Origin: a virus
DNA length: 34,943 nucleotides
Reading direction: 5' to 3' (one strand)
IMG/VR virus record: IMGVR_UViG_3300017963_000161
Location: 1-34,943 of that record
The translations under genes and the position numbers were made by a program. A model generated the notes under the pieces. That model ran no database searches. It was not told where the DNA came from and saw only the letters and a program-made list of their open reading frames with translations. Below, one piece after another: positions 25,903 to 34,943 of this stretch (position 1 is its first letter; every line of letters begins with the position of its first letter).

Positions 25903-26328
25903 TCAATGAAACGTATTTCGTTTCTTAGCTTCACTTTCTAGCTTTTCAATCATATAATTTTTATATTGCTCAGGATTTAATCGTTTCAGGTCTTCCTGGA
26001 AAGACAATTCTGCATGATATTCCCTGCTTTCTTCGGCTTCAATCGTTTTACGTTTTGCTATTTCTTGCCTCCTACGAAACAGTTCTTCTTCGCATAATTT
26101 AATTAATCTTGCAGGTTTAGGCCAGAACGTATCTTGTTGTAAACATTCAGAAATCGCTATCATAACGACATCAAGTTCGTACGTCACTAGAAAATTCCAG
26201 TACTCACGATAAACCTGCAATTTTTCCTCATCTCCACTGGCTGAATTGCTGAAATTTTTACCCAACAGCATTGTCAAACGATCCATTTGCCTGGTAAATT
26301 CTTTTGCTGTTTCGATATCCCTTTTCAT
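25903..26328 (-). CDS. Helicase-loader-like replication protein
   Basis: This 141-aa protein reads VYREYWNFLVTYELDVVMIAISECLQ, then FWPKPARLIKLCEEELFRR and a charged coil to the C-terminus. The pattern of helices followed by a W/F-P-x-P-x-L turn is typical of phage replisome organisers and helicase loaders (lambda P position, G39P-like). It starts 1 bp after the O-like gene, giving the O-P gene order. The family assignment rests on pattern and position. Confidence 0.6.
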   Translation of the reverse strand: MKRDIETAKEFTRQMDRLTMLLGKNFSNSASGDEEKLQVYREYWNFLVTYELDVVMIAISECLQQDTFWPKPARLIKLCEEELFRRRQEIAKRKTIEAEESREYHAELSFQEDLKRLNPEQYKNYMIEKLESEAKKRNTFH

Positions 26329-26329
26329 C

Positions 26330-27241
26330 CTAAGTCCCTGTTATTTCATTAATAAATATATCAGCAACTGACTTTGAATTTTTTTGATCTTCAGGATGAT
26401 CGGCAATATGCATGAATTTTTCAATGTGGCTAGCATCACGCAAAATCAACTCGATATCATCATATTTTTTACCGTCTGGATTGTCTCCCATGTGCCACTT
26501 AGACCTTGAGCAGCCTAGGATTGCGTGCTTGAGAGGTTCAGAATTTCCGCTATGAAGTTTTAAAGCCCTTTCGATAAGCCGCTTGCGTTTGTTGTCCAAC
26601 TTGGCTCGCGGATGGTGTAAGACCTCTTGCCAATATTCGAAAATTATTTTGATTTCCTTGGTGGTCGTTGAGCAACTTGTTTGCTCAACAATGATGGAAG
26701 ATTTTTTGGCATCTGGGATGGCATGGATTTTTCTTTTTACAATTTCTTTTTCCTTCTCCTGATACTGTTCCTGTTCCTGTTCCTGGATCGGGGGTCCCAT
26801 CCCCGATGGTATCGAGATGGCATCCTTGATGGCATACCAGATGCCATCTGAGATGCCATATTTATTTGCTTTAAAGTCTTGATACCATTGGGTTTTTAAT
26901 TTGCACTCTGGAAGAGACTTTAGCATCGCGTTCCATTTTTTGTAAGATTTCGGCGAAGTTGGTGGATTGTACTTTAGGAAGTTTTTTATGTAGACCATTT
27001 GATGCTTCTCGCAGGCATCGAGGATGCCATACGAGATGGCATCCCGGATGGCATCCTCGTACCTTTTTCTCTTCCATCGAATTTCATCTGACAATGCACC
27101 CATTGATGCCTTAAAAAGACCAAGAGGATTTCCATAGTAAGTAGTAAATAAATGAAGAACAACTATTTGTGTATCTGTATTTAGAAATGGGAACTTATCA
27201 TCATTCCAAATAGTTCTATGCAAACAAATATATCTAGACAT
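26330..27241 (-). CDS. Replication initiator, lambda-O-like, with internal origin
   Basis: This 303-aa protein has an N-terminal winged-helix region (IWNDDKFPFLNTDTQIVVLH ... YIKNFLKYNPPTSPKSYKKW), a variable middle with a Glu/Gln repeat (~150-170) and a C-terminal domain (EYWQEVLHHPRAKLDNKRKR ... SKWHMGDNPDGKKYDDIELI) typical of phage replication proteins. The middle part codes for tetrapeptide repeats (DAIR-DAIS-YGIL-DACE; YGIS-DGIW-YAIK-DAIS), because the DNA beneath carries 12-bp-spaced iterons. As in lambda O, the gene seems to contain its own origin. Confidence 0.8.
   Translation of the reverse strand: MSRYICLHRTIWNDDKFPFLNTDTQIVVLHLFTTYYGNPLGLFKASMGALSDEIRWKRKRYEDAIRDAISYGILDACEKHQMVYIKNFLKYNPPTSPKSYKKWNAMLKSLPECKLKTQWYQDFKANKYGISDGIWYAIKDAISIPSGMGPPIQEQEQEQYQEKEKEIVKRKIHAIPDAKKSSIIVEQTSCSTTTKEIKIIFEYWQEVLHHPRAKLDNKRKRLIERALKLHSGNSEPLKHAILGCSRSKWHMGDNPDGKKYDDIELILRDASHIEKFMHIADHPEDQKNSKSVADIFINEITGT
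26705..27054. repeat. Iteron arrays: probable replication origin inside the initiator gene
   Basis: GATGSYAT 8-mers start at 26805, 26816, 26828, 26840 and 26852 (spacing 11-12-12-12), and at 27023, 27035 and 27047 (12-12), with a weaker copy at 27012. A single copy lies at 26717 with a degenerate one 12 bp before. Some copies read GATGGCAT, others GATGCCAT. The regular near-helical spacing on one face of the DNA, in the initiator gene, is typical of origin iterons. Confidence 0.8.
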
Positions 27242-27491: not shown

Positions 27492-27776
27492 TTACTGATC
27501 TTTAAGATCAGTATTTTTTTTAATTTCCCAAATACTATCTAAAGTTAAATCTGGTTTAACAGAAAATCCAGCGGCTTTCATTTTACATAATATTTCATTA
27601 AGAGTGTCAATAATAACAATAGCATTATGCATATTAGGAAATCTAGATCCTCTTTCCCATTGGCTTAAGCTAGTTGATGTAAAACCAGTTAATTCAGCTA
27701 ATTGCATTAATGTTAAACCAGTTAACTTTCTGTATTTACGTAAATTTGAAATAATATTATATTGATTCTGTGACAT
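27492..27776 (-). CDS. XRE-family transcriptional regulator
   Basis: This 94-aa protein has an HTH at ~10-60: ISNLRKYRKLTGLTLMQLAE, then LTGFTSTSLSQWERGSRFPN, a standard Cro/CI-type fold, followed by a short C-terminal helix. It is too short for a CI-like dimerisation domain with a protease site. It is transcribed divergently from the recombination operon and first in the replication operon. It probably represses one or both promoters in 27777-27931. RBS GAGGTGGGAAA. Confidence 0.85.
   Translation of the reverse strand: MSQNQYNIISNLRKYRKLTGLTLMQLAELTGFTSTSLSQWERGSRFPNMHNAIVIIDTLNEILCKMKAAGFSVKPDLTLDSIWEIKKNTDLKDQ
27494..27521 (+). terminator. Intrinsic terminator facing plus, in the end of the XRE gene
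   Basis: ACTGATC (27494-27500), TTTAA loop, GATCAGT (27506-27512) then A and eight Ts on the plus strand. In the plus direction this is a complete terminator. It lies antisense to the replication operon and could stop readthrough from the left plus-strand block. It may also act as a hairpin before the 79-aa gene in minus transcripts. Confidence 0.55.
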
Positions 27777-32463: not shown

Positions 32464-34943
32464 TTATTGATAAGGTTTGGGGTGAACTACAACATGCATT
32501 TTGAAGTTATAAGTCCAGCCATCATCAGGTTCTTCTCGTATAGAAATAGAATGCTGACTTATAGAATCAATTGTTTCTATAGTTCCGTTAGTGCCATCTA
32601 GTTCACGAACTTGACCTGCAGTACCAGTTTGAGGATTGTATGAATTAGCATCTGCTGCAACTGGTATATCAATTAAAGTAGTATTATAATTAAAATGTGC
32701 TATGTGCATTACATCTGGCTCAACCTCATAACCAAAACAACTATAAATTGCAGAACTCATTTGTCCAGTAGTTCCTATAACAATATTATTATTATACGTA
32801 CAAGCTATTCTAGTTTCGGTCTTAGTTATTTCATCACGATCCTCAAAGCCCATAAACTTATATCCTCTATGCATTGCAAGTTTTTTAATAATTAAAGCAT
32901 CGCCACTTGATTCACTACCAGTAGTTCTTATCAATAAACCTAATCTAGTAGCTGAAGTATTAAATGATGCTAAACTTATATCATTCCAAGTCATTAATGA
33001 ATTACTTCCACTTATTGTAATATTTGAAGAACTTGCAACATAAGACCACGTTCCTGTTGCGTCAGAATCTAGTGTAGGTGTTGAACCCCACGTATCAATA
33101 GGATCCTGCAAACAATAATCATCTGTTGATGGAACCCATTGAATAATATCTATTTTAATAGATATTATTCCAGTGGCGCGACCATATAATCCAACAGATA
33201 ATGTCTCACCAGCAGCTTTCAAGTCTGTAAGAACAGTTGAAAATTCATCTAAATATAAAGGTTCATATCCACCTAAATATCCAGTTCCTGTAAGTTGTAA
33301 TACTAATTCATTTTCATTACTAGTGTTACGTTGAACATCAACAGTTGTACTACTTAATACTAAAAATGATGGTGTAACAGGGTCACCATCACTAAATGAA
33401 GAAAGTCCTACTCCTTTAATCCATAAAGGTATTTTTGAAAAATCACCAGAAACTAATAAATTCTTTGGTGGATTAAAGTTTAATACTGCAGTATCTAGTC
33501 TATAATAAGTAACATCTCCGCTTGATACATCTATTAAGGCATTTGTTATATCTTTTCCGTTAAAATAAACTACTCCAGTACTAGAAATACCAAATAGATC
33601 ATAAGTACTGGAAACACCAACTACTTCATCAACTTCTAAATAAAGAGTTGAACCAGAAACTACAAAAGCAGGTGTGGAACTATTCATACCAGAAGCATCT
33701 AATTTTTTAATATGTACATATGTATGCGTAGTTAAACCACCACTACAATTAAAAACATTACCAGTTGCAGTTCCACTAGTTCGAACTTCATCTATATCAA
33801 AATATGCACTTCCTAATTGATGCGTAACACAAGAATTACTAGAGCTATGTAATAAAAGTCCTATATTATAGTATTGAATATTATCATCATTTCCTATATG
33901 TACTATTGCACGTCCACTACCACTATTACTTATAATATTTGCATTAAAATATGCTGGATCATCGTCTGCAGCAGAAAAATGTTCCATTCCATCGCCAGAA
34001 GTTACAAGAAATTTATGACAAGAAAATGATGCTCCTGCTTTTAAGAAAATATTTGAATTACTGAACGTAGCAGCTCTACAGTCATACACACTATCTGCTA
34101 TTGTTATAAAACTGTCACTTGTATAGGTTCCATTATCTGTTATATAGAATTTAGATGCTGTTGATCCAGCAGCAGTATTAGCACTTGTTAAAGTTAATTT
34201 AGGAACTGATAGGTTTAAACCATCATTAGAGTCATTACCATTCTTACCTACATAATAAACATTAACTTGATCTGGCAGATCTGCACCACCAGCTGCTTGC
34301 CATGCTGCCGCAGTTGGTCCAGTTAGTGTAAGTACATAGCCTGTAGTTGAACCTGCAGCAGGCCATGTTACAGTATTAATAGATGCAACAGAACTTAAGG
34401 CTTTACTATTAACATCTAGATCTTTGCCAAGCTTAATAACACCAGTGCCATCTGGGATTAAATCAATATCATCATTGCTACCACTACCTGTACTTACAGT
34501 AATACTTCCGCTAGTAGTTGTAATCGTACCACCAGTAGGGAAAGTAATCCCTGTGAATCCACTTACAGCTCCACCATTAGCGGTAATAGTGCTTTCAATT
34601 AATCCATCTGGTGTGGCATTATTCTGCACAAAAGCATTAGCCGTCGAATAAGAAGCATAAGTATCCTGCAATCCTGTAAAAGTTTGCACGGAATTAAGAT
34701 CAATCCATGAAGTGCCATTATAAACTTTATAAGTATCTTCATCATCTACATAACAAGCATATCCTTCTTCTGTAACTGTTTCAGTCCAATCAGTTCCATT
34801 CCATTCATATATATAATCTTCAGTAACTGATTGCGCTGTACCAGAACTCGTTCCTGTTACAGTATTAATATAACGATCACCAACAGACGGGCTTCCAGGT
34901 TCTGCTGTTGTAAAATCTACTTCATCTATAACAGCTTTTTGCC
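32464..34943 (-). CDS. Giant tail fibre/tailspike, C-terminal part (continues from 1918)
   Basis: This is the same gene as 1-1918; the junction residues read through. The portion has a DUF2793-like YNGTSWIDL region, a second copy of the FTGL/FTDL...NNATPDGLIE module (cf. NNSTPDGLVE in the N-half), then a second beta-helix from ~826 (YYVGKNGNDSNDGL, the entry motif again). A lectin-like C-terminal part follows (GYKFMGFEDRDEITKTETRI to the end, VVVHPKPYQ). The ATG-like start at 34689 is internal. Ends TAA at 32464. Positions 34821-34943 duplicate 1-123. Confidence 0.88.
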   Translation of the reverse strand, partial: QKAVIDEVDFTTAEPGSPSVGDRYINTVTGTSSGTAQSVTEDYIYEWNGTDWTETVTEEGYACYVDDEDTYKVYNGTSWIDLNSVQTFTGLQDTYASYSTANAFVQNNATPDGLIESTITANGGAVSGFTGITFPTGGTITTTSGSITVSTGSGSNDDIDLIPDGTGVIKLGKDLDVNSKALSSVASINTVTWPAAGSTTGYVLTLTGPTAAAWQAAGGADLPDQVNVYYVGKNGNDSNDGLNLSVPKLTLTSANTAAGSTASKFYITDNGTYTSDSFITIADSVYDCRAATFSNSNIFLKAGASFSCHKFLVTSGDGMEHFSAADDDPAYFNANIISNSGSGRAIVHIGNDDNIQYYNIGLLLHSSSNSCVTHQLGSAYFDIDEVRTSGTATGNVFNCSGGLTTHTYVHIKKLDASGMNSSTPAFVVSGSTLYLEVDEVVGVSSTYDLFGISSTGVVYFNGKDITNALIDVSSGDVTYYRLDTAVLNFNPPKNLLVSGDFSKIPLWIKGVGLSSFSDGDPVTPSFLVLSSTTVDVQRNTSNENELVLQLTGTGYLGGYEPLYLDEFSTVLTDLKAAGETLSVGLYGRATGIISIKIDIIQWVPSTDDYCLQDPIDTWGSTPTLDSDATGTWSYVASSSNITISGSNSLMTWNDISLASFNTSATRLGLLIRTTGSESSGDALIIKKLAMHRGYKFMGFEDRDEITKTETRIACTYNNNIVIGTTGQMSSAIYSCFGYEVEPDVMHIAHFNYNTTLIDIPVAADANSYNPQTGTAGQVRELDGTNGTIETIDSISQHSISIREEPDDGWTYNFKMHVVVHPKPYQ
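34821..34943. repeat. Terminal direct repeat, right copy
   Basis: This is an exact copy of positions 1-123. It marks the point where the circular genome was opened. It lies inside the tail-fibre gene and should be counted once. Confidence 0.93.

Follow-up and report, generated by a model that had tools for sequence, protein, structure and literature searches.

The phage initiator gene described here probably carries its own replication origin within its coding sequence, comprising two arrays of short words that the initiator would bind and an adjoining trinucleotide tract that would be melted before helicase loading. The gene encodes a protein of 303 residues and lies in a 34.9-kb viral record (IMG/VR; 34,943 nucleotides, hereafter the window) that also encodes a P22-like portal, a terminase, and RecT. 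The arrays, the word common to arrays A and B, constraint at the DNA level, the conserved array positions, and the retention of the tract in different reading frames are established from the sequence. Binding of the words by the initiator, melting of the tract or capture of a single strand, and the start of replication at this site are what these features suggest, and the role as a replication origin is read from the identity of the gene and its neighborhood. The coordinates of all features are listed in Table 1.

Table 1. Features of the candidate origin region and flanking genes, in window coordinates
Feature	Position	Strand	Description
Possible helicase loader gene, 141 aa (position of lambda P)	25903..26328	-	Adjoins initiator gene
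Initiator gene, 303 aa	26330..27241	-	PHROG replication initiation protein (4e-18), DnaD-like (3e-11), O-like (8e-10)
Remnant array C	26707..26724	-	Pair of words with 11-bp spacing, on the far side of the tract; also in L007
Trinucleotide tract	26744..26785	-	CAGGAA hexamer run, one break (TAT), then CAGGAGAAGGAAAAAGAA
Array B	26805..26859	-	Four ATGSCAT words and ATACCAT; pitch 12, 12, 12, 11
Array A	27012..27054	-	ATGSCAT at 27024, 27036, and 27048, degenerate word at 27012; 12-bp pitch
Upstream HTH_3 regulator gene	27492..27776	-	Pfam HTH_3 (6e-8)

The initiator gene and its repeated words

The window initiator matched profiles of the DnaD-like/O-like phage initiator family (PHROG 16167, 1701, and 18020), and phrog_1701 and 25711 were common to its relatives. 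A Pfam search with the 303-residue protein gave no match, and a profile search of solved structures returned only chance-like matches. The protein has an N-terminal winged helix (residues ~8–92), a disordered linker (~145–192), and a C-terminal helical domain. When modeled using AlphaFold (pLDDT 79), the winged helix consisted of helices at residues 22–33, 47–53, and 58–70 and a wing with strands at 74–77 and 82–85. Residues 58–70 of the window protein, and 59–72 of the homologue L033, form the third helix of the modeled domain, next to the wing hairpin, and this helix is predicted to be the DNA-recognition helix. The N-domain of the initiator from a staphylococcal multiresistance plasmid (4pt7, 4pql, and 5kbj) is also a winged helix (VIA Z 7.4–7.8 over 83–87 residues), but the match was weak, tied with unrelated winged helices, and gives no evidence of kinship.

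The adjoining 141-residue protein had a weak PHROG match to P-like helicase loaders (E = 0.024). Among named relatives, the initiator gene usually follows a cII/cro-type regulator, and several have a DnaC-like or P-like loader gene directly downstream. GC skew in the window did not mark the initiator gene as the origin, but skew follows gene strand here and is therefore uninformative. The DnaA box TTATNCACA, with one mismatch allowed, was absent between 24.9 and 27.6 kb. Elsewhere in the window, a 741-residue ORF (32464–34689) had no Pfam or PHROG match.

The word GATGSYAT gave 18 strand-hits in the window compared with 6.1 expected, a count that none of 100 shuffles reached. These represent nine distinct sites (26717, 26805, 26816, 26828, 26840, 26852, 27023, 27035, and 27047), all inside the initiator gene, and the pitch within arrays is 12 bp except for the 11-bp step from 26805 to 26816. 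A sequence-only reading of this DNA had described two regular arrays of the word in the initiator gene with tetrapeptide repeats in the protein beneath them. The nine sites confirm the arrays (27023–27054 and 26805–26859), and the tetrapeptides are as described; they arise because words spaced 12 bp apart keep the same codon phase. The third, degenerate array of that reading exists as a remnant (array C), although it amounts to only two words. Most words contain a near-symmetric 7-mer core, ATG-S-CAT; because this core is near-palindromic, the mixture of GATGGCAT and GATGCCAT is one site read on either strand.

Array A, lengthened by the degenerate CAGGCAT as its fourth word, overlies the codons of the putative recognition helix (58–70) and the first wing strand. 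Array B occupies codons ~128–146, between the winged-helix domain and the linker. In the window itself, array B exceeded synonymous-codon shuffles modestly (P = 0.03), since the underlying peptide is repetitive; the case therefore rests on relatives.

Between array B and remnant C, we found a CAGGAA hexamer run (26765–26785) that the sequence-only reading had missed. The tract to which it belongs consists of NAR triplets on the coding strand, with T at every third base on the other strand. It is not AT-rich (48% GC at 26740–26799), and A-rich DNA (35% GC) follows.

Words and tract across the initiator family

Relatives L007 (82% identical) and L009 (51%) keep ATGSCAT at both array positions, so that the words persist while the protein varies, an outcome in favor of the sequence-only reading. 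More distant homologues carry other near-palindromes at the same two positions: AACSGTT in L008, AAGGGTT in L010, AATSATT in L015, AAGSCTT in L013, L016, and L019, and AAGGGGCTT in L033 and in phages of Acinetobacter, Klebsiella, and E. coli. Word type follows initiator clade on the N-domain tree, which implies a minimum of 14 changes of word and eight changes of tract frame (QE to GT), both counts being rough because many branches are weak. The word occurs in both orientations in 35 of 42 genes, which fits the earlier suggestion of a single binding rule read either way.

Tested against synonymous-codon shuffles, the array-B chain was significant (P ≤ 0.05) in 39 of 51 non-redundant homologues and not in the other 12. 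The same test was positive in 3 of 100 control ORFs from the homologue contigs. The pitch is 12 or 11 bp, the latter in a large part of the family. An 11-bp pitch puts the word in several codon phases (two or three in 18 of 19 such genes), and as the peptide then does not repeat, protein repeats cannot explain the arrays. Some sister E. coli prophages carry array B as an inverted block, reading GAAGGGGCTT in L330 and GAAGCCCCTT in L331, and the inversion changes EGAFKGL to EAPSEPL, a Gly/Pro change. Words in several frames, beyond synonymous shuffles and inverted with such a change, support the earlier proposal that DNA function has shaped this coding sequence. The longest perfect array that we observed, in L064:3939-5012, has nine consecutive AATCATT words spaced exactly 12 bp apart.

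The word of array B also recurs upstream in the same genes. We counted 79 exact copies in the upstream parts of 42 genes, with at least one copy in 39. Synonymous shuffles gave a mean of 15.2 copies (maximum 24 in 200 shuffles), and permuting words among genes gave a mean of 19.8 (maximum 40 in 5,000). The word had a density of 4.68/kb upstream, whereas the remaining ORFs on these contigs gave 0.14/kb. Among the 60 upstream words mapped onto the window protein, 53 fell at residues 56–78, mostly at 60, 64, 68, and 72, a cluster that both AlphaFold models (window and L033) place on the putative recognition helix. Exact counting was used, as the residues of the helix come close to spelling the word and one-mismatch counts in region A (169, compared with 117 in synonymous shuffles) were therefore barely elevated.

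Scanning the DNA of IMG/VR for the tract without regard to frame yielded at least 120 stretches. Hexamer counts were restricted to the BLAST-connected initiator family because GT-rich proteins outside the family can contain CAGGAA runs as well. In two such cases, L051 and L118, the CAGGAA/GT-repeat runs belong to long GT-rich proteins that seem to have no part in replication, making the hexamer alone an unsafe marker. Within the family, the run is read as QEQE in 41 and as GTGT in 10 non-redundant initiator genes. The NAR run equaled or exceeded the largest of 200 synonymous shuffles in all 10 GT-frame genes; since the run itself led to most of these genes, this result bears on its frame and not on its presence. 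Codon usage inside the QE run is nearly uniform (CAG 65/66), which we did not count as selection because slippage can produce it, and protein choice or slippage of the repeat may account in part for the tract of QE-frame genes. In L014:2975-3075, L158, and L160, a run of CCTAAT, GTTCCC, or CCCTTC takes the place of CAGGAA; the GTTCCC and CCCTTC runs fall outside the strict three-base rule.

Homologues were detected by tblastn in 334 actinophage records of INPHARED. Among 42 actinophage homologues sampled from IMG/VR through the N-terminus only, word arrays exceeded shuffles in 19 and trinucleotide tracts, mostly YTN, in 19. These tracts include CTACTCCTACTCCTGCTCC, with T at wobble positions, and CTACTCCTA-type tracts. 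The rule common to them and to the window group is an A (or T) at every third base. Relative to the arrays, the tract has the polarity of oriC in many actinophage homologues and the reverse polarity in the window group.

We also scanned IMG/VR for three GATGSCAT words at 12-bp pitch. Most matches (L024, L025, and L028) were unrelated PS- or GD-rich proteins and were rejected; L007/L027, a close relative, was recovered as well, together with a single distant initiator, L026. The latter, an actinophage-type initiator (L026:5465-6655, minus strand), has GATGSCAT words at 12-bp pitch too, along with an A-every-third-base tract (GCACCAACACCAGAACCACAA). A scan of genome contigs gave a single match, L161, with part of the architecture only. 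L012 shares the C-terminal domain of the window protein (58% over residues 200–277) but has a different N-domain, and this O-like initiator carries different intragenic repeats, TGACACAGTGTCA, at ~22-bp pitch (L012:3909-3967). Since both differ in L012, the N-domain and the word behave as one module.

Proposed mechanism and alternative explanations

In the mechanism that we propose, the 303-residue protein would bind near-palindromic words (ATG-S-CAT in the window) through its winged helix, in two in-phase arrays. The loaded arrays would form a nucleoprotein filament and open the adjacent trinucleotide-periodic tract. The exposed strand, NAR or its YTN complement, may then be captured through its three-base rhythm by the initiator or by a loader, and a putative helicase loader from the adjacent gene would bring in the helicase. 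Being symmetric, the word would work in either direction, and with sites and reader in one gene, the specificity of both could change together. On balance, we lean toward a broader reading, in which this is a widespread class of phage origins whose recognition-helix codons are the binding sites of the helix itself, forming a self-consistent unit able to switch words repeatedly, with a DnaA-trio-like melting tract shared with or convergent to that of bacterial oriC.

Instead of forming the origin itself, the arrays might serve the initiator in autoregulation or incompatibility (handcuffing). Copy control in plasmids often involves extra iterons to which the initiator binds, and two spatially separate arrays within one gene would suit such a role. 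Control sites would have no need, however, of the conserved tract that follows array B, the arrays are intragenic and away from the promoter, and several named relatives have the lambda cII-O-P gene order; we regard this explanation as unlikely. We give still less weight to the idea that a different phage protein (a repressor or a partition protein) uses the words as operators that happen to lie in the initiator gene. Any HTH dimer could read near-palindromes, and binding by the initiator is itself a prediction. Against this, word type tracks initiator clade, L012 differs in repeats as well as in N-domain, and the arrays stay in the initiator gene across phages of many hosts and gene contexts.

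Equally improbable is that the repetition belongs to the protein, as tetrapeptides of an amphipathic helix and a charged QE linker selected at the protein level, with the DNA repeats a by-product of duplication or slippage. The codon-phased 12-bp pitch, the resemblance of the QE stretch to a typical disordered linker, and the codon uniformity within the run, which could stem from slippage, agree with such an origin. Yet 11-bp arrays cross codon phases, exact words are fivefold above synonymous shuffles, the tract is read as QE or GT, actinophage tracts keep their periodicity at wobble positions, and word inversion replaces Gly with Pro in sister prophages. Protein-level repetition is thus already contradicted for the initiator family.

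Comparison with known origins

The sequence-only reading had likened the arrays to the lambda ori. The candidate origin appears to be of that kind, but with a distinct anatomy of short symmetric words, 11/12-bp pitch, a second array in the codons of the recognition helix, changing words, and a trio-like tract. The lambda iterons lie inside O, between the DNA-binding and C-terminal domains, and adjoin an unwinding region; binding, opening, and origin activity have been demonstrated there by experiment (PMC5043065, PMC7466680), with O binding and bending the iterons and opening the AT-rich tract. Intragenic near-palindromic repeats are shared with the lambda ori and the Stx-phage ori, as is the cII-initiator-loader order in several named relatives. 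Lambda has a single array of four 18-bp iterons (18–19 bp type) at 20–24 bp pitch after the DNA-binding domain, whereas the window family has two arrays of 7–9 bp words at 11–12 bp pitch, strongly divergent between relatives. Where the window family has a trinucleotide tract, lambda has only an AT-rich block. A search of the N-terminal part of the lambda O gene for a second iteron array found none, the best match having 7 of 18 positions mismatched.

At B. subtilis oriC, DnaA-trios (3'-GAT-5') and an opposing DnaD recognition element (5'-TnnT-3' pairs) lie beside DnaA boxes (PMC10201434). At 26744–26785 in the window, 3'-RAN-5' trinucleotides, with TnnT on the opposite strand, similarly form a run beside the arrays. 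The candidate origin thus shares with the basal unwinding system of oriC a series of double-strand boxes followed by a three-base-periodic element, for which a single-strand role is predicted here, and actinophage tracts resemble 5'-CTA-3', the complement of DnaA-trios. In contrast to the DnaA boxes of the chromosomal oriC, the words here lie in a phage gene, with no DnaA box within 0.3 kb of it. The oriC polarity, in which the TnnT strand runs 5' to 3' away from the boxes, is reversed in the window group.

Iteron plasmids (P1, RK2, and R6K) share helical-phase direct repeats with the window family but differ in initiator fold and in having longer iterons, located either outside rep or beside it. 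Their repeats are bound by the cognate initiator beside an opening region (PMC5043065). In mycobacteriophages Miko, Rachaly, and Jeeves, repA and flanking DNA suffice for replication; the authors suspected an origin upstream of or inside repA and found no repeats in the region that they examined (PMC7157519). The HTH of this RepA, which is related to plasmid RepA, is at residues 95–132. Full-text searches limited to open-access papers found no description of the origin anatomy proposed here, so its priority is uncertain.

The initiator family offers a natural series of known sequences and predicted sites that is useful for reading winged-helix DNA specificity, and it poses an evolutionary puzzle, in that the codons for a helix have to spell out the very site bound by that helix. 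The family further suggests that trinucleotide single-strand elements extend beyond chromosomal origins. A sequence rule follows by which candidate origins could be located in many temperate phages and prophages: near-palindromic words are repeated every 11–12 bp, first in the codons of the recognition helix and a second time past the winged helix, and a three-base-periodic tract comes next. Of 5,426 complete E. coli genomes, 540 contain DNA resembling one homologue.
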